From positions 1,079,612-1,143,611 of the forward strand of contig CP072660.1 of assembly GCA_029637525.1 (NCBI GenBank): a stretch of DNA of 64,000 nt. The letters run 5' to 3'. The notes under the pieces were generated by a model. That model had not been told where the DNA came from. It saw only the letters and a program-made list of their open reading frames with translations, and did no database searches. The DNA is from Desulfurococcaceae archaeon MEX13E-LK6-19. Its GTDB lineage: Archaea > Thermoproteota > Thermoprotei_A > Sulfolobales > Desulfurococcaceae. Positions 40,054-59,335 of the stretch are shown in pieces. A program made the translations under genes and the position numbers. Every line of letters begins with the position of its first letter. Position 1 is the first letter of the stretch.

Positions 40054-40242
40054 AAGATCCACCCACCATAGTCCGGGGTTTATTCTAACTAGGTATTTCA
40101 CTACATTATTTCTGATTAAGGAATAGTATTTATACCTTGTTGTTTTATTATATATCTAATGTATTATGCAAAATACGTATTAGTAAAAAAATTTTTGTAC
40201 TATTCCCCTACGGGTAGTAAGATCATTGGTAGGGGATGTAGA

Positions 40243-42574: not shown

Positions 42575-42662
42575 GGCGTCTCTCCACAGTTTAATTAATC
42601 ATTTAAGTACGCCACATATATATTCTTTCCATATCTAACTTATTAATGATATCGGAAAATAT

Positions 42663-42680
42663 TTACTAACTGGTAGTTAT
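42663..42680. promoter_or_regulatory. Candidate TrmB operator before the module 2 regulator
   Basis: TTACTA-ACTGG-TAGTTA is an imperfect inverted repeat (one mismatch in 6-base arms) about 30 bases before the start of the module 2 regulator and in the only spacer between it and the divergent treT gene. Its CTGGTAGT half is identical to that of the stronger repeat at 56387-56410. Regulation of treT and the regulator itself is inferred. Confidence 0.45.
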
Positions 42681-42707: not shown

Positions 42708-43763
42708 ATGGTCCCTGAAGACGAGGAACATATGATACGTGAAGCCCTCGAGAAACTAGATATACGTGGTTATGAACTAAAAGCTTATCTAACAATACTC
42801 AAGCTTGGAGAAGAAACAGCTCCAACAATAGCTTCTAAAGCGGGTATCCCTCTCCCAAGAATCTATAGTGTACTAGAATCCCTCTTGAAGAAAGGCTTGA
42901 TCGAGGTAAGAATGGGGAGGCCCCGTAAGTATCGTGCACTACCACCTAGGATCTCTTTAATACACTATGTGAGAAAGAGGATTAACGAGTTAACGGAGTT
43001 GACTAATGCTGTTGTCGAGAAACTATCATCTTACTACCAGGAGTCTGAAGGGGAAAGAGAACCTGTTCTATGGATGATGTACAATATTGATGTTGGTGTC
43101 GAGAGAATGAGGCATATGATAACGAGCATGGATACAGATGGATTTACATCTCTCAACGTAAATGTGCTGAAGAAAGTAATCAACACTTTGGCGAAGACAT
43201 TAGCAGCAAAGAAAAGTAGTATCTTCGGAATAGCTGTTATCTCTGAAGATATACCAGCTAGTATCAAGGAAATTGTTGAGCGTACAAAGAACATTGAAGT
43301 AAAAATCCTGCCTACAGGAATAGTAAACATGTTTGAGGTGGATCTATCAAACCTTATGCTATTCGGCAAAAACTATGTAATACATTCAGCCGAGTGGGAG
43401 CTCATTGTCCTGGCCAATGAGTCTTTTTACCATGGGTACTGGCGTTTAGCAAAGAAAATCAAGGATTTCGATGTAGAAAAAGGAGCAACATACAGGACAG
43501 CCCATCACTGGCTTGCACTAGACATCATACAGAAAGCACTACAAAACGGGTATAACGTCTTTGCTAAAATAAAGGGCTTTAAGGTAAAAACACATGAACC
43601 AGTAGAAGTTGAAGGCTATATTAAAAAGTTACTAATAACTAACGACGGTGGTATAAGATCAATATACATTGAAGATAAAGAAGGAAACATTATAAGTGCA
43701 GGCGGAATAGGTGCATCAATAGAAGATATTGAATCTAGGTACCTAGAGCTAACAGTGCAATAA
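42708..43763 (+). CDS. TrmB-family sugar-responsive regulator (module 2)
   Basis: A 351-residue member of the TrmB family. The winged helix is DIRGYELKAYLTILKLGEETAPTIASKAGIPLPRIYSVLESLLKKGLI, followed by RMGRPRKYRALPP, a linker helix and the sugar-binding domain ending in ISAGGIGASIEDIESRYLEL. The central region differs clearly from the other two TrmB proteins in the window, which suggests a different ligand. ATG 42708 is supported by GGTGAT 7 bases upstream. It is divergent from treT and lies 340 bases before the module 2 importer, so it may control both. Confidence 0.9.
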   Translation: MVPEDEEHMIREALEKLDIRGYELKAYLTILKLGEETAPTIASKAGIPLPRIYSVLESLLKKGLIEVRMGRPRKYRALPPRISLIHYVRKRINELTELTNAVVEKLSSYYQESEGEREPVLWMMYNIDVGVERMRHMITSMDTDGFTSLNVNVLKKVINTLAKTLAAKKSSIFGIAVISEDIPASIKEIVERTKNIEVKILPTGIVNMFEVDLSNLMLFGKNYVIHSAEWELIVLANESFYHGYWRLAKKIKDFDVEKGATYRTAHHWLALDIIQKALQNGYNVFAKIKGFKVKTHEPVEVEGYIKKLLITNDGGIRSIYIEDKEGNIISAGGIGASIEDIESRYLELTVQ

Positions 43764-44104
43764 CAATGTAGTCTTACTCAAGACATTATATCTTTTAAAG
43801 GAAATTTAAACGAGAACTCTGTATTTCTGGTCAATAAATCATTTTTATTACTTGATTGTTTAGACCATGTATTTTATGTCCTGTAGTAGTGCCGAGTTAG
43901 AATACTGTATAACATGTACCTGCCTTTACGTTTATCTAGACAGACTTTACCACTAGCCAGTAATTTATTTTATGTATCTAATTCAGAAGGTTATATTATT
44001 TAACTAAACCATGAAAGGCGTTTAAAGATAATAATAGTAGTAAAGGTTTTATATCTTCTCTTATAAAACAAAATGGTAGGATACACGTGGACAGGTGGTT
44101 TCTT
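43764..44104. promoter_or_regulatory. Spacer and promoter of the module 2 importer
   Basis: This 341-base spacer holds no convincing gene. A TATA-like TTTTATATC lies at about 44047-44055 and a GGTGG ribosome binding site at 44094-44098. AGTAGTAAA at 44036-44044, just before the TATA element, resembles the half site seen near the other importer promoters. TTTACCACTAGCCAGTAA at 43946-43963 is a further imperfect inverted repeat (TTAC-N9-GTAA). The rest is AT-rich and featureless. Confidence 0.45.
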
Positions 44105-50712: not shown

Positions 50713-51807
50713 TTATGTTATTGCTTTCCCCGTATTCTTATCAAAGAAATACAGTTTGTCAGGTCTTGGTGTCCAGTATATTATACCTCCTAGTTCGAGT
50801 TGTATGTTCCCTTTAACCACGGCAACATAGTCTGTTAGTCTACCTACTGTGAAGTGTATGTATGTCTCGGTGCCAAGAGGCTCATAGCCTACTATTCTAC
50901 CTTTATAATAACCTTCCATAGGCTTTGTTGAAACAATTATGTCCTGGGGTCTAACTCCCAAGACAATGCTTTTACCAACGTACTTACTTAGAGGTTCTTT
51001 ATATACACTAGGGATCTCTATGGAGACTTCTCCTATATCGAGATATAGCTTATTCTCCTTTTCTACTAAAGTACCTTCCATAAAATTCATTGGAGGTACT
51101 CCAATGAAACCTGCCACGAACATATTAGCTGGTTTCTCAAAGACCTCTATTGGAGTACCTACTTGCATTACTTTACCTTCATTCATTACTGCTATTCTAT
51201 CAGCCATGGTCATAGCCTCTACCTGGTCGTGTGTAACATAGATCGTTGTAATCCCTAATTTCTCGTGGAGCAATTTACGTAGCTCAAACCTCATTTTAAC
51301 TCTAAGTTTTGCATCGAGATTACTGAGAGGCTCGTCTAACAAGAATACTTCCGGTTCTCTAACAATAGCTCTAGCTAAAGCTACACGTTGTTGCTGGCCA
51401 CCACTTAATTGCTTTGGATATCTATTCAATAGATTCTCTATGCCAAGGAATCTAGCAACTTCTATGACTTTACGTTTACGTTCTTCCTTAGGTACACGAG
51501 CCATCTTCAATGGGAATTCTATGTTCTGGAATACCGTCATATGAGGATAGAGGGCATAGCTTTGGAAAACCATAGCTACATTTCTTTCAACAGGATCGAT
51601 TTCATTGACTAGTCTTTCACCAATCCATATCTCTCCCTCATCGGGATCTTCAAGTCCTGCTATTAGTCTTAGTGTAGTTGTTTTACCGCATCCACTGGGG
51701 CCAAGCAGAACCATAAACTCTTTGTCTCTAACCTCTAATGTTACGTGGTCAACAGCTACTACTTTCCCGAAGCGCTTAGTTACATTCTTGAGAAAAACTC
51801 TAGCCAA
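50713..51807 (-). CDS. Sugar ABC transporter ATPase (module 3, MalK-like)
   Basis: A 364-residue ATPase with Walker A GPSGCGKTT, Q-loop MVFQSYALYPHM, signature LSGGQQQRVALARA, Walker B VFLLDEPLSNLDA, switch YVTHDQVEAMTM and a C-terminal TOBE region with FIGVPPMNFMEG and GVRPQDIIV. The start is TTG 51807, with GGGGTGACC just upstream, formed by the end of the permease gene. It is the last gene of the module 3 importer operon. Of the three MalK paralogues it shares the MTMADRIAVMN stretch with module 1 (MTMGDRIAVMN); the C-terminal domains differ most. Confidence 0.93.
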   Translation of the reverse strand: MARVFLKNVTKRFGKVVAVDHVTLEVRDKEFMVLLGPSGCGKTTTLRLIAGLEDPDEGEIWIGERLVNEIDPVERNVAMVFQSYALYPHMTVFQNIEFPLKMARVPKEERKRKVIEVARFLGIENLLNRYPKQLSGGQQQRVALARAIVREPEVFLLDEPLSNLDAKLRVKMRFELRKLLHEKLGITTIYVTHDQVEAMTMADRIAVMNEGKVMQVGTPIEVFEKPANMFVAGFIGVPPMNFMEGTLVEKENKLYLDIGEVSIEIPSVYKEPLSKYVGKSIVLGVRPQDIIVSTKPMEGYYKGRIVGYEPLGTETYIHFTVGRLTDYVAVVKGNIQLELGGIIYWTPRPDKLYFFDKNTGKAIT

Positions 51808-51814
51808 TCCAAGG

Positions 51815-52657
51815 TCACCCCTTACCTGCTGTTATAACAATTCCCCTGATCAAGTATTTGTTTAATGCTATGAAGAGGAGTATTGTTGGAGCAGCGGCTA
51901 TAAGTGACCCAGCTATGATCGGAGTATATTCTGTCCACATGCTGCGTTGAAAAGCAAAACTAAGTCCTACTGGAAGCGTAAAGTTTTCAGGGGATCTAAG
52001 GAAGACTAGTGGGCCAAGGAAAGCATTCCATGCACCGAGAAACTGGTATACAGCTACTGCGCCAAGAGCAGGCTTGGCTAAAGGCAAGCCTATGTAGAAG
52101 AAGGTCTTAACAGGACCACAACCATCTAATCTAGCTGCGTCAAATACGTCTTGTGGTAATGAGAGAAAGTATTGTCTCATAAGGAATATGCTTGATACAT
52201 TGGCTAATCCTAGAAGAGCTAGTCCTAGTATGTTGTCGATAAGCCCAAGCCTATAGACTATAATGTAGTTCGGTACGAGAGTTACAAAAGCAGGTATCAT
52301 GAGAAGGGCTAGTAAGGCTGAAAACAAAGCATCTTTGCCAGGGAACTTTAGTCTAGCGAAAGCATATCCTGCCATGCTAGTAAATAATATGTTACCGGCC
52401 ACGATTAACCCGGCGTAGATAGCTGAATTAAGTATCCATCTAGGGAAAAGCTCTAGCCTAAACACCTTAATGTAGTTCTCTAAAGTAAATGGATCAGGGA
52501 TCCATTCAGGCGGATAACGTGAAGCCTGCTCCCATGTCATAAATGATGCAATAAATGATCTTATGAAAGGAGTTAAGTATACTAAAGCAAATACTGTTAG
52601 CACGGTGTATACAAGTATTTTCCAAGCAAATCTAGATAAGATTCTTTTAATCTTCAT
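51815..52657 (-). CDS. Sugar ABC transporter permease (module 3, MalG-like)
   Basis: A 280-residue permease. The N-terminal helix (ILVYTVLTVFALVYLTPFIRSF) is followed by the RYPPEWIPDPFTLENYIKVF loop typical of this family. The EAA loop is LPQDVFDAARLDGCGPVKTFFYIGLPLAKPAL and the end is LNKYLIRGIVITAGKG. ATG 52657 overlaps the MalF-like stop by 4 bases. It forms half of the module 3 channel. Confidence 0.92.
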   Translation of the reverse strand: MKIKRILSRFAWKILVYTVLTVFALVYLTPFIRSFIASFMTWEQASRYPPEWIPDPFTLENYIKVFRLELFPRWILNSAIYAGLIVAGNILFTSMAGYAFARLKFPGKDALFSALLALLMIPAFVTLVPNYIIVYRLGLIDNILGLALLGLANVSSIFLMRQYFLSLPQDVFDAARLDGCGPVKTFFYIGLPLAKPALGAVAVYQFLGAWNAFLGPLVFLRSPENFTLPVGLSFAFQRSMWTEYTPIIAGSLIAAAPTILLFIALNKYLIRGIVITAGKG

Positions 52658-53643
52658 CGGGGCACCACCTTATACTTCTTCTGGAAAATATATGTTGATA
52701 CAAAGATTAGTGTGAACAGGAACATACTTTTGGCGGCTGCTACACCAGGTCTAAGGTTTATAAAGGCTTCACGATATATGTCGAGGGCCATTGTATAGCC
52801 TGCGCCACCTGGCCCTCCACTAGGTCCTGCCATAACCCATGCTAGATCGAACATTTGCAGAGCACCGATCATTCCCATAACAACTACATAAACAATCATA
52901 GGTTTGAGCATAGGTATAGTTATGTATATGAATCTCCGGATAGGCCCTGCTCCATCCAGCATTGCTGCTTCATATAGTTCTCTCGGGATTGACTGCATGG
53001 CAGCCAGGAAGGATACCATGAAGTGGCCGCTTGTACCCCATATTGCTACTAATGCTATGGCGTAGAGCAAGTAGTTCTTGTCATGTATCCAATCTGGAGC
53101 AAAACCGGGTATGATTAATTGTATCATATAGTTTATGAATCCGTACTTCATAAATAACCATATGAATATAAGTGATATTATTACTGGGCATGTCACGGCT
53201 GGCAGGAAGTATGATACTTTATAGAATTGTACACCCTTGATCTTCTGGTTAGCGAAAGCAGCAAGCACCATTGCTAGAAAGGTTTGTGTAGGGACAACTA
53301 TTAGTGTATACAAAACTATATTCTTTAAGCCTGTATAGAATGGTGCTAGGAAGTAATGTGCTCCCGAGATTCCTCTTAAGAGATCGCGTAGAAGGATCTC
53401 ATAGTTTTTAAGACCAACAAACTTCATGGGGCCTATGTAATTCCACTCAAAGAAGCTTAAGTAAACTGCGAAGAGAGCAGCAAAGTATCCAAAGACAAAG
53501 TTTAAGAGGGTGGCGATGGAGACTAAAAGAAGACCCGATAGGGCTTCACGGTACTTTTTCTTAACTATTATCTTCGAGAATTTCTTCTGAACTATTTCTT
53601 TTGATTCAAAAAATATTTGGGATTTGAATATAGGTTTAGCCAT
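52654..53643 (-). CDS. Sugar ABC transporter permease (module 3, MalF-like)
   Basis: A 329-residue permease with a basic N-terminal extension of about 30 residues before the first helix (ALSGLLLVSIATLLNFVFGYF). The EAA loop reads PRELYEAAMLDGAGPIRRFIYITIPMLKPMI and is followed by GPSGGPGGAGYTMALDIYREAF. It lies 24 bases after the binding-protein gene, a much shorter gap than in module 2. The extension is charged and cytoplasmic by prediction; its role is unknown. It pairs with the MalG-like protein. Confidence 0.92.
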   Translation of the reverse strand: MAKPIFKSQIFFESKEIVQKKFSKIIVKKKYREALSGLLLVSIATLLNFVFGYFAALFAVYLSFFEWNYIGPMKFVGLKNYEILLRDLLRGISGAHYFLAPFYTGLKNIVLYTLIVVPTQTFLAMVLAAFANQKIKGVQFYKVSYFLPAVTCPVIISLIFIWLFMKYGFINYMIQLIIPGFAPDWIHDKNYLLYAIALVAIWGTSGHFMVSFLAAMQSIPRELYEAAMLDGAGPIRRFIYITIPMLKPMIVYVVVMGMIGALQMFDLAWVMAGPSGGPGGAGYTMALDIYREAFINLRPGVAAAKSMFLFTLIFVSTYIFQKKYKVVPR

Positions 53644-53667: not shown

Positions 53668-54990
53668 CTAGCCCTGGAACATTTCTTGTACAACTTGTTT
53701 CATAGACTCTAGTGCTTCATCTATAGTAATTTCGCCTCTCATAGCAGCGGCCATGATGTCACTTATCTTTGATTCTAATTCGCCAGACTTTGGTCCCCAC
53801 AGGAATATTTGTACCATAGTGTACTCGTCTAGGAACGATAGAGATTTCCTGTGTTGAGGCCACATATCTGGATCATTTTCAAGCCCTTTGATCGATGGTA
53901 GTGTGTGTCCCATTTTGACAACGAGAGTCTTCTGTCCCTCTTTGCCTACAACGAATTTCACAAACTCAACAGCTGCCTCAGGGTTCTCTGTCTTAGAGTT
54001 TATTGCTAGAGCAACTGTATATGCCATAGTTACTCTTCCTTTTGTTCCTCTTGGCACAGGAGCAATGTCCCAGTCTTCGCCAAACTTGAAGTCTGGGTAC
54101 TGGTCTGCAAGGAATGGTATCATCCAGTTCCCACTAATGACCATGGCTACTTTCTGGCTACCAAAAGCGTCGCCAAGCCATCCTGCACCGACATCACTTG
54201 GCGCGACAACATATGGAGGTAATCCCTTCTGCTCTCTCTCAATCTTACCCTTTAAGTAGAGGTTGATATACCATTCCATAGTTTCTCTAACAACAGGGTG
54301 GTCAAACCAAGATGCGTCATCAGGGCTATCAAACCATGGTTTAGGAGCTCCATTACTTAGCGCAACAGGCATATACCTGTTGAAGCCGCCAAGGTATATT
54401 GCTAGTCCAGGTACACCGGTCTTATTAGTTATGATTTCAGCATACTTTACAAGTTCATCCCATGTGTCAGGAGGTCTAGTTAAGCCTGCTTGCTGGAACA
54501 ACTTCTTATTATAGAATAACATTAACATACTCCAGTCTTTGGGGAGACCATAGATTTTCCCGTCAGCTCCCTTGAAAGGCTCTAGTAGGAAGCTATAGAA
54601 CTGGTTTATGAATTCCTCATCAACATAATCAGAGATTGGTAAAACAGCTCCCTTATCAATGAATATGGGCGCCCATGATGAATCAAGATAGAATACGTCA
54701 GGTGCGACTCCAGCACCATATGACGCTAAAATGTTCTCATGAAACATCTGTGTAATAACTTCATACTTTATTATTATATCGGGGTGTTGTTCTTGGAATA
54801 ATGATATTATTTTTTCATAATTCTTCATTTCTGTTTCTCCAGCACTCCATCCAGCAAATCTAATATAGATCTTTTCTGTTGGTCGTTGCATCTGAGTCCA
54901 TATGTACCATCCTGCTAGTGCTGCAGCAATAATTATGACTAAAACAATTAAGGCTATGATACTTTTTGCCAGGGCTTTAGATCTGGCCAA
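53668..54990 (-). CDS. Sugar-binding protein of ABC transporter (module 3)
   Basis: A 440-residue extracellular binding protein. The N-terminus MARSKALAKSIIALIVLVII looks like a class III (pilin-type) signal, basic residues followed directly by a hydrophobic stretch, as in the Sulfolobus sugar-binding proteins. Then come IYIRFAGWSAGETEMKNYEKI, HPDIIIKYEVITQMFHENIL, DVFYLDSSWAPIFIDKGAVL, IYGLPKDWSMLMLFYNKKLF, and the C-lobe FVKFVVGKEGQKTLVVKMGH. The start is TTG 54990. Its promoter carries an inverted repeat over the TATA element (55031-55052). It should import the substrate of the GH65 phosphorylase encoded across the divergent region. Confidence 0.9.
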   Translation of the reverse strand: MARSKALAKSIIALIVLVIIIAAALAGWYIWTQMQRPTEKIYIRFAGWSAGETEMKNYEKIISLFQEQHPDIIIKYEVITQMFHENILASYGAGVAPDVFYLDSSWAPIFIDKGAVLPISDYVDEEFINQFYSFLLEPFKGADGKIYGLPKDWSMLMLFYNKKLFQQAGLTRPPDTWDELVKYAEIITNKTGVPGLAIYLGGFNRYMPVALSNGAPKPWFDSPDDASWFDHPVVRETMEWYINLYLKGKIEREQKGLPPYVVAPSDVGAGWLGDAFGSQKVAMVISGNWMIPFLADQYPDFKFGEDWDIAPVPRGTKGRVTMAYTVALAINSKTENPEAAVEFVKFVVGKEGQKTLVVKMGHTLPSIKGLENDPDMWPQHRKSLSFLDEYTMVQIFLWGPKSGELESKISDIMAAAMRGEITIDEALESMKQVVQEMFQG

Positions 54991-55030: not shown

Positions 55031-55052
55031 CTTATTACCAGTGGGTAGTATA
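55031..55052. promoter_or_regulatory. Candidate TrmB operator over the module 3 importer promoter
   Basis: CTTATTAC-CAGTGG-GTAGTATA has the same 6-base spacing and an identical right half (GTAGTATA) to the perfect repeat at 56387-56410; the left half matches at 5 of 8 positions. On the minus strand TTTATACTAC doubles as the TATA element, with transcription expected near 55025. Binding here would block the TATA-binding protein, consistent with repression in the absence of sugar. Inferred. Confidence 0.5.
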
Positions 55053-55228
55053 AATTCTTTATCGTAATGAGTAATATAACTGATCTTCTGTTGTGAAAAA
55101 GTAGTATACAATACTCTTGATTAAATAACATAATCTATATACTCTTTATTGTATAAGAGAACGTAGTAGTATTTAATAAGAAGTAGCAAAACATCTTCTA
55201 CAAAAATATGATTATACGAAGTGTACTC

Positions 55229-56269
55229 CTAGGATATAACTTCTATGACATCAGATTCAATATCTTCTAGATAAGCACCCCATCCTCCTACGCTATATTT
55301 TAGCCCAGTACTTGTCTTAACAATTATTCTTGCAATACCAGCATAGACATCATAGAGTGTGTCAATAGGTTCTCCTTCAACTACTATCGGTTTCTTATTT
55401 TTCACGAGTTTTCCTTTGACTCTAACAACTACTTTTCTTCCCTTCTTCTTTAAGGAGTCGATCATTACTATGGCTCTGGGTACATTAACAAACCTTCTTA
55501 GAAAGACTTTTTCTCCAAAAGCGGTGTAGACAGGTTTAGCTAAATCTCTTATGTTGTGGAGGAAGTATTCTGTGAATAATTTGACTAGCTCCTTGTTTTC
55601 AGTATAGTACCCCGAAGGAGTATGCTCTGAGGGCTCATACCAGTCTGTAGCAAAAACCACCATTTTCCTATCAGGAAGCGCGACAACTATACCGTAAGTC
55701 TTCTTGATCCTGTGTTCGTCGACATAGGTAATGGGCTCTATTTCGTCATAAGTGACAAGACATGTTGAGACACCTCTCTTGTATGCTTTGATCAATGGTT
55801 TCTCTATGAATGAGAACATATGCTTATAGCATGATACTAGAAGCTCGTGCTCAGCCGCCTCAATGGCTTCGATTATGCTATTCTTTATCTTGGCTAATGG
55901 TTCAAGCCTCCATATTATACCTGTGCCAGGCCTAGGTTTCTCCTTGCTTAAAACCTCAAGTAAACCAACAACATTCTCGTAGCTCTCCTTAATTTTCTCT
56001 TGTATTTTTTCAACAAGTCTTTGTAAGGCAGTTTTTGGCTCTATCGCACGATAAAGCTTAGGTCTACCTTCACTAGACACGATAAGACCTTTTTCTTCAA
56101 GTCCATGAAGTACATCGTATACTCTTGGTTGAGGTATATGGGCTTTTTTAGCGATCTCTGTACTAGTTAATACTCCTTCACGTAAGAGTATAATGTAGGC
56201 TTTAGCTTCATAAGATGATAAACCAAGGGTTTTGAGTTTAGCAATAATCTCCTCGATATCTACATTCAT
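55229..56269 (-). CDS. TrmB-family sugar-responsive regulator (module 3)
   Basis: A ~346-residue TrmB protein. The winged helix is LGLSSYEAKAYIILLREGVLTSTEIAKKAHIPQPRVYDVLHGLEEKGLI, then EGRPKLYRAIEPKTALQRL, a helical linker and the sugar-binding half ending in YSVGGWGAYLEDIESDVIEV. ATG 56269 is chosen because GGAGTG lies 8 bases upstream; GTG 56278 is too close to it. It sits between the importer operon and the HAD/GH65 pair, with inverted repeats in both flanking promoters, so it most likely controls both and perhaps itself. Confidence 0.9.
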   Translation of the reverse strand: MNVDIEEIIAKLKTLGLSSYEAKAYIILLREGVLTSTEIAKKAHIPQPRVYDVLHGLEEKGLIVSSEGRPKLYRAIEPKTALQRLVEKIQEKIKESYENVVGLLEVLSKEKPRPGTGIIWRLEPLAKIKNSIIEAIEAAEHELLVSCYKHMFSFIEKPLIKAYKRGVSTCLVTYDEIEPITYVDEHRIKKTYGIVVALPDRKMVVFATDWYEPSEHTPSGYYTENKELVKLFTEYFLHNIRDLAKPVYTAFGEKVFLRRFVNVPRAIVMIDSLKKKGRKVVVRVKGKLVKNKKPIVVEGEPIDTLYDVYAGIARIIVKTSTGLKYSVGGWGAYLEDIESDVIEVIS

Positions 56270-56386
56270 ATTTTTCACACTCCGTTCAGACTCTGTATAA
56301 CAAGATAATCTTATGGTATGAGTTGTTTCCAGGCACTCTCATGTGCCCTTTCTCTTCTATATAGTACTCAAATATACATATTTTTT

Positions 56387-56410
56387 ATATACTACAGACT
56401 GGTAGTATAT
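56387..56410. promoter_or_regulatory. Perfect inverted repeat in the TrmB/HAD-GH65 divergent promoter
   Basis: ATATACTAC-AGACTG-GTAGTATAT is a perfect repeat with 9-base arms and a 6-base spacer, in the 196-base region between the module 3 regulator and the HAD gene. It overlaps the 3' end of the TTTTTTATATA element that probably serves as TATA box for the HAD/GH65 transcript, so a bound protein should repress it. It is the strongest of the repeated TAC-N6-GTA-type sites in the window. Confidence 0.6.
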
Positions 56411-56465: not shown

Positions 56466-57170
56466 ATGATTTACGTGTTTATATGGGATTTCGATGGTGT
56501 CATAGTGTTTACTCCTCATGAGGAAGCATGGAGGATTGCTGCTGAAACATATGGTGCCAAGGGTTTTACACATGATTTCTACTTAAAGCATGTAGCTGGA
56601 CGCCCGAGATTTGAAGGGGGGCATGCGATCTTAGAGCTTCTGGGAGTCTATAAAGCAAAAGGTCTTGTAGACAGTGAATCTAAGAAGAAGCTTTTGAGAG
56701 AATTTACTAATTTCAAGAATAAAGTCTTTCGCGAGCTCATTGAGAGAGGTGTCTATGAAGTTAATTGGAGTGTTATAGACTTCATTATCCGGGCTAAGAG
56801 AGAAGGCATAATTCAAGTACTTGCTTCTGCCTCGAAAAACGCTAGCCCCATAGCTTACAAAGTTATCATTAAAGGCTATGGCGTCTTGGCAAACCTATTT
56901 GATATAGATGTTAGTGGGACAGGCCGCTCTAAAGAAGAGGTTTTCAAGAATGCTGTAGAGTATGTTAAAGAAAACTATGGTACAATAGACTGTGCTATAG
57001 TTTTTGACGATGCACCCTCGGGAGTCAAAGCTGGTAAGAAACTTGGCTTAAAAGTCGTTGGCTATGGTGGTAATGAATTACTTGAAGCTGGAGCAGATCT
57101 TGTTGTTAAAGAATTCAAAGACCTTAACCCCCTGGTTCTGATCAAAGAGCTTGGGTGTATTTTAAAATGA
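56466..57170 (+). CDS. HAD phosphatase/mutase, beta-phosphoglucomutase-like
   Basis: A 234-residue HAD hydrolase with a helical cap. Motif I is IWDFDGVIVF (nucleophile Asp9, general acid Asp11), the cap substrate motif AGRPRFEGGHAIL, motif II LASASKN, motif III lysine in GTGRSKEEVF and motif IV FDDAPSGVKAGKKLG. The cap motif and the ASASKN string are those of beta-phosphoglucomutase, which turns beta-glucose-1-phosphate into glucose-6-phosphate. The next gene encodes a GH65 phosphorylase that releases beta-glucose-1-phosphate, and the two overlap by 4 bases, so the assignment is strong by context. A plain sugar phosphatase is the alternative. GGTAGGG precedes ATG 56466. Confidence 0.82.
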   Translation: MIYVFIWDFDGVIVFTPHEEAWRIAAETYGAKGFTHDFYLKHVAGRPRFEGGHAILELLGVYKAKGLVDSESKKKLLREFTNFKNKVFRELIERGVYEVNWSVIDFIIRAKREGIIQVLASASKNASPIAYKVIIKGYGVLANLFDIDVSGTGRSKEEVFKNAVEYVKENYGTIDCAIVFDDAPSGVKAGKKLGLKVVGYGGNELLEAGADLVVKEFKDLNPLVLIKELGCILK

Positions 57171-59335
57171 AGTTTATTTACAAACAAAATAAGCTTGATT
57201 ACCGTATGGAAGAAAAGTTGGGTACATTACTTACTCTAGCTAATGGTAGGTTTTCTATTCGTGGAGAACTAGAGCTTATACCATCACGGTATGGAATCTT
57301 TGTCAGTAATGTATACGATTACGCTCCGGTTTACTATAGGGAAATAGTTAATCTCCCAAGACCTATCGGAGTATATATCATAGTTAATGGGGAACCTTTG
57401 GTATTCAGTAAAGAAGCTAAGTACCACATAGAGCGTATATTAGATATAAACAAAGGTGTCTTATCAACGAAGATTACTTGGGAGCGTGGAGGCAAGAAAG
57501 TACTCTATGAAAGTACGAGAATAGTCCATAAGAAGAATAAGTTTCTTGCAGGGCTTCGTTTCAAGATAAAAACCATGGGTTTTAATGGGAAATTAACCAT
57601 TATATCACCAATAGAACTTGATAAGACAAATCCTTCTTTTCCTGAACACGTTACTATAAGACACTATAAAGTTCTGGACAAAGTTGATAGCAAGCAAGGT
57701 GTTGGCGTTATAGTTGAGACTCATGACAAAAAATATAGAGTCGGTATAGCATCGCTTCTAAGACCTAGTGGAAGAAATGATTTCGAGAGAATTTTCATAG
57801 AGACGGGCAATGTTGTTGGAGAATCTATTATTCTTGATGTAAATGACGGGGATGAACATGTGTTTACAAAATACATTAGTGTGGTAAGAAATATTGATGT
57901 AGATAATGTTCTCGAGAATGCATTGAATGTACTTGTTGATGCTCTAGATAAAGGATGGAATACCGTATATGAAGAACATGTTGAAGCATGGGAGTCTATT
58001 TGGAGAGAAATAGACTTATCTATAGAAGGTGACCCATACGCTGAGAAGTTGTTGAAGTTTAATGCATTTCATCTACTACAGTTAGTTGATGATGAGAAGG
58101 ATTATATTATGATCCCTGCTCGCGGACTACATGGCATAGGTTATAGAGGGCATGTTTTCTGGGATACAGATATCTATACACTCCCGTTCTACACGCTAAT
58201 AGTTGGCAAAGCAGGTAGATTGGTGCTTAACTATAGATGTAATCTTCTCGGTAAGGCAATAGAGTATGCTAGATCCCTTGGATATAATGGAGCCAGATTC
58301 CCGTGGGAATGTGCTGACGATGGTTATGAGGCAGCACCTAACGAGATTCCTCTCGATGTCCTTGGCAAGGAGAAGATACCGATCTATACTGGTATAGAGG
58401 AAGAACATATTACGGCTGATATAGCTTTTGCTGTAGACTATTATTACAATGCTACAGGAGACGACTACTTCATGGAAAGATGTGGTTTGAAGATAATATT
58501 TGAGTCTGCTAGGTATTGGGCTAGTCGTGTAAAGATGAAGAATGGATTCTACGTATTGGAGAAAGTGATGGGCCCCGATGAATACCATGGACATGTAAAT
58601 AATAGTTTTTATACAAATATTCTTGTTAAGAAGAATATGGATCTAGCCATAAGATATTATTATGCCTCACGGAGAAAGAAGAAGTGGTTGCAAGTTGTTA
58701 GAGAACTAGGTATAACTCTCAACGAAGTTAATTTATGGAAGGAAATAAGAGACAAGATCTACATACCCTGCAATAAAGATGGTTTTTGTGAGGAATTCGA
58801 AGGTTATATGGAGCTCAAAGATTACGTTATTGAAGATGAGTGTTTTGGTGAACAATGCGTTCCAAGAGAGATTCTCAATAGAGTTGAAGAAACAAAGTTA
58901 GTTAAGCAAGCCGATGTTGTTGCTGCGATGTTTATCCTCTACGATGAGTTCAAGAAAGATGTTATCAGGAAGAATTTTGAGTACTATGTTAAGAGGACCA
59001 CACATGCTTCATCGCTTTCACTACCATTTTATGCTGGTTTAGCTGCCCGCCTCGGATTGATAGATCTAGCTTACAAGTACTTTATTAGAGCAGCAGAAAC
59101 AGACCTAAATGATATCTATGGAAATACTGAACATGGATTCCATGTTGGAGCAGCAGGCGGGGTATGGTACGCATTCCTACATGGATTCCTGGGTATAACA
59201 TTGAAGAATGGTGAAATAAAAAGTATCGAGCCAAGACTTCCTGATCACTGGAAGAGAGTATCATTGAACATAATTGTTGGTGGCAATAAGAAGAAAGTGG
59301 TAGTAGAGAATAAAGAAAATGTAATACATGTATAA
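57167..59335 (+). CDS. GH65 glycoside phosphorylase (maltose/trehalose/kojibiose type)
   Basis: A 722-residue inverting phosphorylase or hydrolase. An N-terminal beta-sandwich (to about 270) is followed by an alpha6/alpha6 barrel with GHVFWDTDIYTLPFY, GARFPWECADDGYE and the catalytic acid Glu472 in VMGPDEYHGHVNNSFYTN; HASSLSLPFYAGLAARLG and NTEHGFHVGAAGGVW lie near the phosphate site. The length is near the usual 750-790. The protein cannot be assigned to one disaccharide by eye; trehalose, kojibiose, nigerose and maltose phosphorylases share these motifs. ATG 57167 overlaps the HAD stop (ATGA); GTG 57155 is an alternative. With the HAD protein it should split imported disaccharide without spending ATP. 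Confidence 0.88.
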   Translation: MKFIYKQNKLDYRMEEKLGTLLTLANGRFSIRGELELIPSRYGIFVSNVYDYAPVYYREIVNLPRPIGVYIIVNGEPLVFSKEAKYHIERILDINKGVLSTKITWERGGKKVLYESTRIVHKKNKFLAGLRFKIKTMGFNGKLTIISPIELDKTNPSFPEHVTIRHYKVLDKVDSKQGVGVIVETHDKKYRVGIASLLRPSGRNDFERIFIETGNVVGESIILDVNDGDEHVFTKYISVVRNIDVDNVLENALNVLVDALDKGWNTVYEEHVEAWESIWREIDLSIEGDPYAEKLLKFNAFHLLQLVDDEKDYIMIPARGLHGIGYRGHVFWDTDIYTLPFYTLIVGKAGRLVLNYRCNLLGKAIEYARSLGYNGARFPWECADDGYEAAPNEIPLDVLGKEKIPIYTGIEEEHITADIAFAVDYYYNATGDDYFMERCGLKIIFESARYWASRVKMKNGFYVLEKVMGPDEYHGHVNNSFYTNILVKKNMDLAIRYYYASRRKKKWLQVVRELGITLNEVNLWKEIRDKIYIPCNKDGFCEEFEGYMELKDYVIEDECFGEQCVPREILNRVEETKLVKQADVVAAMFILYDEFKKDVIRKNFEYYVKRTTHASSLSLPFYAGLAARLGLIDLAYKYFIRAAETDLNDIYGNTEHGFHVGAAGGVWYAFLHGFLGITLKNGEIKSIEPRLPDHWKRVSLNIIVGGNKKKVVVENKENVIHV

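Follow-up and report, generated by a model that had tools for sequence, protein, structure and literature searches.

A probable two-operon TrmB regulon with inverted-repeat operators at the TATA boxes of a sugar importer and a GH65 operon in a Desulfurococcaceae archaeon

Introduction

Transcriptional regulators of the TrmB family have been characterised mainly in Euryarchaeota. The operator of TrmB at the TM operon of Pyrococcus furiosus and Thermococcus litoralis is TACT-N3-AGTA, and P. furiosus TrmB blocks TBP/TFB at this operon from a position between the TATA box and the transcription start (PMC4158304). The Thermococcales Glycolytic Motif (TGM) of TrmBL1/Tgr is TATCAC-N5-GTGATA, and TrmBL1 blocks RNA polymerase from a position between the TATA box and the start (PMC4706686). 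The motif of Halobacterium salinarum TrmB, which acts globally on gluconeogenesis and further pathways, is TACT-N7-8-GAGTA, and the activator MalR of Sulfolobus acidocaldarius has two ATAATACT repeats in direct orientation far upstream of malE, at -139/-106 (PMC4158304). For Crenarchaeota, a 2014 review reports only one studied TrmB case, which is an activator whose repeats are direct (PMC4158304). Our literature search, which covered few subscription papers, found no reported TrmB regulon of Desulfurococcales.

The DNA analysed here, called the window, is a stretch of 64,000 nucleotides from Desulfurococcaceae archaeon MEX13E-LK6-19, in which three TrmB proteins (TrmB-1 to TrmB-3) and sugar importers of modules 1 to 3 are encoded. 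An initial annotation had proposed a shared inverted-repeat operator family for these three regulators.

Results and Discussion

Two inverted repeats at the HAD/GH65 and importer promoters

Operator A, ATATACTAC-agactg-GTAGTATAT, consists of two 9-bp arms and an N6 spacer (Table 1). The initial annotation had described it as a perfect 9-base inverted repeat with an N6 spacer over the HAD/GH65 TATA region at 56387-56410, and the sequence agrees exactly. The overlap between the TATA box and the left arm is also present in orthologues. The search for perfect 9-bp repeats with spacers of 3-10 gave six overlapping matches at five places in the window, of which operator A is the sole intergenic one, and TACTACN3-9GTAGTA has a single exact occurrence in the 1.91-Mb genome, which is again operator A.

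Operator B reads TATTAC-cagtgg-GTAGTA on the forward strand (55033-55050) and TTTATACTAC-ccactg-GTAATAA in the reading direction of the importer. A related repeat with an identical half had been placed at the TATA box of the module-3 importer; this was confirmed, as GTAGTATA lies at 55045-55052 and is part of operator B. The arrangement of this operator and its TATA box recurs in orthologues. With TATA boxes and transcription starts assigned from sequence, A and B overlap the box or lie just downstream of it, which is the position of repressor-type sites. Within the window's clade, every importer copy is imperfect (GTAATA) and nearly all HAD copies are perfect; the importer may therefore be under looser repression than the HAD operon.

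Table 1. Positions of the predicted operators, promoter elements and genes in the window
Feature	Position	Strand	Remarks
Operator A	56387..56410	.	Perfect inverted repeat ATATACTAC-N6-GTAGTATAT; HAD/GH65 promoter
Predicted TATA box of HAD/GH65 operon (TTTTATATA)	56383..56391	+	From sequence; overlaps left arm of operator A
HAD hydrolase, beta-phosphoglucomutase-like	56466..57170	+	Subfamily match below cut-off
GH65 alpha-glucoside phosphorylase/hydrolase	57155..59335	+	PF03632, PF03636
TrmB-3, probable binder	55229..56278	-	TrmB HTH PF01978 and sugar-binding domain PF11495
Operator B	55031..55052 (core 55033-55050)	.	TACTAC-ccactg-GTAATA in importer direction
Predicted TATA box of module-3 importer (AATTTATA on - strand)	55049..55056	-	From sequence; abuts operator B
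Module-3 importer, solute-binding protein, sugar-type	53668..54990	-	Profile match; orthologues 77-84% identical in conserved clusters
Module-3 importer, two permeases and ATPase	50713..53643 (52654-53643, 51815-52657, 50713-51807)	-	
Weak module-2-type site TTACCACT-AGCC-AGTAATTT	43947..43966	.	Upstream of module-2 importer; third-ranked in 64 kb by the module-2 matrix built on other genomes
Weak module-2-type site TATTTACT-AACT-GGTAGTTA	42660..42679	.	Before TrmB-2; rank 7 of 64 kb, module-2 matrix

Conservation of the two operators

Sixteen gene clusters with homologues of HAD-GH65-TrmB3 or importer-3 were compared from 15 genomes, several of the relatives being draft or incomplete genomes. 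The inverted repeat was present at both promoters wherever these were visible, and it usually abuts the TATA box. The arms were kept and the spacers were not, the information content being 1.8-1.9 bits per column in the arms versus 0.43 in the spacer (15 sites). A close TrmB-3 occurs in seven genomes, that of the window and those of six relatives (47-60% identity), and each of them has TACTAC-N6-GTAATA at the importer promoter; G035 was an eighth genome showing this site, so that eight of eight close orthologous importer-3 promoters have it. The repeat of operator A was found in 6/6 close orthologous HAD promoters, and TACTAC-N6-GTAGTA in all six of those genomes showing this promoter, with one base altered in one of them. 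The chance probability of each exact site within its promoter was about 0.001 or less, and a matrix built without the window gave operator A the highest and operator B the second-highest rank in the 64 kb. In G115, G517 and G015, whose TrmB-3 is 34-37% identical, the repeat was again detected at both promoters, the HAD copy lying at or over the start codon. On this comparative evidence, A and B are taken to be real, functional sites.

TrmB-3 as the probable binder

TrmB-3 matched the TrmB HTH domain with 83.3 bits (cut-off 25.6) and the TrmB sugar-binding domain with 149.9 bits (cut-off 22.2), and remained below the NCBIfam equivalog cut-offs for TrmB, TrmBL1 and haloarchaeal TrmB (94/600, 102/650 and 111/500 bits, respectively). 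The G-x5-E pattern of 3QPH, which holds the sugar-site Gly and Glu, is kept in TrmB-3, and the recognition-helix Tyr-Asp is also present, PQPRVYDVL being aligned with PYNRVYDTI of 3QPH. The orthologues of TrmB-3 sit in one common type of gene cluster, composed of HAD, GH65, TrmB-3 and a sugar importer.

Among 211 genomes of the order, at least two TATA-linked sites (TATACTAC-N6-GTARTA) were found in 4/4 genomes with TrmB-3 and in 0/207 without it (Fisher p about 1e-8, counting genomes and not independent events). Ten other genomes of the order showed a single TATA-linked match, one of them being the importer-3 promoter in a genome that is incomplete. The sequence data thus point to A and B as the operators of one local regulon, with TrmB-3 as the probable binder.

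Spacer length and TrmB clades

Five genomes of another class contain a HAD-GH65-TrmB cluster and an importer with the same repeat, but with a 5-base spacer. Here the importer form is TACTAC-N5-GTAGTA and the HAD forms are TAYYAC-N5-GTRRTA variants, usually directly behind the TATA box. When exact matches were sorted by spacer, the loci of the first group gave 12 with spacer 6 and at most one with any other, and those of the second group gave seven with spacer 5 and none with other spacers. In the TrmB tree, the N5 proteins form one clade (support 97/93) separate from two N6 clades. Spacer length tracks TrmB clade, including two HAD-GH65-TrmB systems of different spacer length inside one genome (G297; L193, L194), one with a sugar-type and the other with an oligopeptide-type ABC importer. 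The first combines an N5-clade TrmB with N5 sites; the second has a TrmB of the deep N6 clade, N6 sites and the importer of the unrelated oligopeptide-type family. The HAD site of this N6 system, read by eye as CACTAC-N6-GTAGCA, matches weakly, and the pair is therefore suggestive of the link between spacer and clade and not conclusive.

Linker length was rejected as an explanation for the N5/N6 difference, since the deep N6 clade has the same shorter linker as the N5 clade. Tentatively, and at slightly less than even odds, spacer length could serve as a specificity code, in which half-sites and two-operon regulon would stay constant, with one clade reading N5 and two clades N6. Co-resident systems such as those of G297 would consequently be insulated by one base pair.

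Comparison with described TrmB operators

Like the TM operon, the locus has a local TrmB beside a sugar ABC importer and an inverted repeat at BRE/TATA, and the repression by blocking of the transcription machinery described there is predicted here. The TM motif TACT-N3-AGTA can be written as TAC-N5-GTA, whereas the window sites have N6 and thus another spacing; their inner spacer is 6 bases long and TAC is repeated on the outside (TACTAC-N6-GTAGTA). A further difference is the regulon, GH65/HAD plus importer, and TrmB-3 reaches only 94 of the 600 bits set for TrmB. In the second class, TACT-N3-AGTA is exactly contained in three of the five importer operators (G302, G242 and G332; TAC-TACT-N3-AGTA-GTA), and the other two are off by one base.

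The TGM is likewise an inverted repeat, hexamer-N5-hexamer, just downstream of the TATA box and used for repression. Its half-site TATCAC is matched by module 2, with an N6 spacer in the module-2 relatives, and the HAD site of G332 is a TGM hybrid, TATCAC-N5-GTAGTA. The window sites, in contrast, have the half-site TACTAC with N6 and belong to a local two-operon regulon, whereas the regulon of the TGM is global and concerns glycolysis. Halobacterium salinarum TrmB has TACT/AGTA half-sites in common with the window, but its spacing is longer and the regulator is global. MalR is a TrmB-family regulator of the same phylum whose repeats include the TACT half-site; its direct repeats and activator role differ from the inverted repeats on the TATA box and the expected repressor of the window.

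The core had been noted as unlike the TGM, from which a crenarchaeal TrmB code was proposed. The core does differ, but the known TACT-N3-AGTA was overlooked and an independent code did not emerge. Because three of the N5 importer operators contain TACT-N3-AGTA and one N5 HAD site has a TGM half, the window operator is, as judged by these motifs, a version of the known TrmB/TGM operator that varies in spacing and half-site and not a separate crenarchaeal code. A predicted repressor-type TrmB operator can here be followed across two classes within a single archaeal phylum, together with its regulator, two target operons and a one-base spacing change. This ties the crenarchaeal sites to TACT-N3-AGTA and the TGM and provides a natural series for how TrmB dimers measure operator spacing, and the matrix is usable to find sugar regulons in uncultured archaea.

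Weak sites of modules 2 and 1

The TrmB-2 and importer-2 promoters of nine other genomes carry TYAC-N6-GTRA (TYACT-N4-AGTRA; best TATCAC-N6-GTGATA), which corresponds to TATCAC, the half-site of the TGM, at a spacing of 6 bases. The best sites of this type in the window, both weak, were those at 43947 and 42660, and the latter aligns with the TrmB-2 promoter motif of the orthologues. As the two module-2 intergenic regions make up only about 0.7% of the window, the location there of two of the five matches other than site B has a p value of about 5e-4. These results partly support a TrmB-2 motif that is related but distinct. The recognition helix of TrmB-2 (42708-43763) contains Tyr-Ser in place of the Tyr-Asp of most orthologues, and the TrmB-2 sites are degenerate; co-divergence of the two is possible.

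The individual sites proposed earlier fared differently. The site at 42663-42680 is real sequence and obtains modest support from its rank of 7 with the module-2 matrix (start 42660), but scored very low with the module-3 matrix. The site at 44036-44044 (TAGTAGTAA) contains no palindrome and was unranked by either matrix, and the better module-2 site at 43947 had been overlooked. The TrmB-1 site at 40198-40219 ranked sixth, at 40201, with the module-2 matrix, but TrmB-1/importer-1 orthologues have no conserved counterpart. A search of the window and of four divergent intergenic regions from orthologous loci yielded no conserved TrmB-1 operator. In five genomes (window 40102-40242; L185, L186, L187 and L189) the genes of importer-1 and TrmB-1 point away from each other, and in several of these a AATAAATTATTC-like element precedes the importer-1 TATA box, which is a candidate for a different TrmB-1 operator.

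When the 64 kb were scanned with the module-3 matrix, a kind of check that the initial annotation had suggested, A and B came out on top but the module-2 sites scored poorly. A single matrix for all three modules was rejected because of this failure and because site A scored about 0 with the module-2 matrix. One operator code common to all three TrmB proteins would fit the YAC-N6-GTR core found in all motifs, the ranks of 7, 3 and 6 obtained by 42660, 43947 and 40201 under the module-2 matrix, and the moderate score of site B under the same matrix. It is nevertheless unlikely in view of the scores across matrices, the lack of a conserved site in module 1 and the failure of 44036-44044, and no evidence was obtained for one code read by all three proteins. 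What stands of the proposed shared family is that A and B would form one regulon; module 2 has its own motif and module 1 no conserved version.

Proposed mechanism

The favoured reading, with a probability of about 0.86, is that a local repressor, TrmB-3, has A and B as its operators and would block transcription until imported alpha-glucoside binds. Its computational basis is the conserved sites, their geometry and their linkage to TrmB-3, from which we infer binding, repression and inducer. A TrmB-3 dimer would occupy two TAC half-sites, in TACTAC-N6-GTAGTA at HAD/GH65 and in TACTAC-N6-GTAATA at the importer, and the operators would span the TATA box to just short of the probable transcription start. 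Bound TrmB-3 would block TBP/TFB or RNA polymerase. Imported alpha-glucoside in the sugar-binding domain would release TrmB-3 from the operators, allowing the joint expression of the importer and the phosphorolysis enzymes (GH65 and the beta-phosphoglucomutase-like HAD). Module 2 would be under TrmB-2 through a related yet distinct motif.

Alternatively, TrmB-3 might simply be encoded nearby, and the operators might serve TrmB-1, TrmB-2 or a regulator outside the TrmB family. The genome has four TrmB-like matches, TrmB-family proteins other than TrmB-3 could also bind A and B, and in G003 the palindrome also precedes three other sugar importers; however, the presence of the site and its spacer length track the TrmB-3 clade, TrmB-2 promoters have a different motif and TrmB-1 promoters have none, which leaves this alternative improbable by a wide measure. 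Chance inverted repeats in AT-rich promoter DNA might be suspected from the perfect 9-bp repeats at five places in the window and the frequent weak matches inside genes. For A and B, chance is refuted by the footprints, as both promoters are conserved over 15 genomes, arms but not spacers are kept, and the leave-window-out ranks are 1 and 2; for the weak sites 40201, 42660 and 44036 it is possible. An RNA feature (leader hairpin or terminator) instead of a DNA site can practically be dismissed: although the HAD repeat covers the start codon in some deep relatives and would thus be transcribed there, it overlaps the TATA box in the window and most relatives and would therefore lie mostly outside the transcript, and its AT-rich, weak arms have a fixed sequence and no compensating pairs.

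Other occurrences of the motif

With up to three mismatches, the motif gave 62 matches in the window versus 46 expected. At one mismatch or fewer, 38 matches were counted genome-wide from pattern searches and selected stretches, 30 of them within genes at a coding share of 88% (p=0.06). An equal frequency inside genes had been named as an argument against the motif, and the weak matches are indeed not significantly enriched outside genes, but A and B are set apart by being exact, TATA-linked and conserved. The bare motif alone is too common to be decisive, and the sequence of a single genome would be no more than suggestive.

Elsewhere in the window's genome (G000), an exact TATTAC-N6-GTAATA at 1780264 (L180 4001-4018) directly follows TTTATATA and is a possible third target; the gene that begins 63 bp further on encodes a predicted secreted protein to which no Pfam family matched. 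Another promoter-like site, with one mismatch, was seen at 1195362 before a protein without Pfam match. A fourth TrmB-like HTH protein is encoded at 317951-318451 (open frame 247 aa).

In the Pyrodictiaceae MAG G003, exact TACTAC-N6-GTAGTA precedes three further sugar ABC importers (L054 7159, L055 8957 and L053 7896), and its regulon seems to be larger. The excess of matches over the reversed pattern in this genome (101 vs 29) was set aside as evidence, because the reversed control is unmatched in dinucleotide content and most of the inspected TATA-linked near-matches are inside genes. G003 and G518, MAGs of different families, have a near-identical stretch (L064 and L152) with the same genes and the same 20-mer, which may reflect cross-binning or recent transfer.
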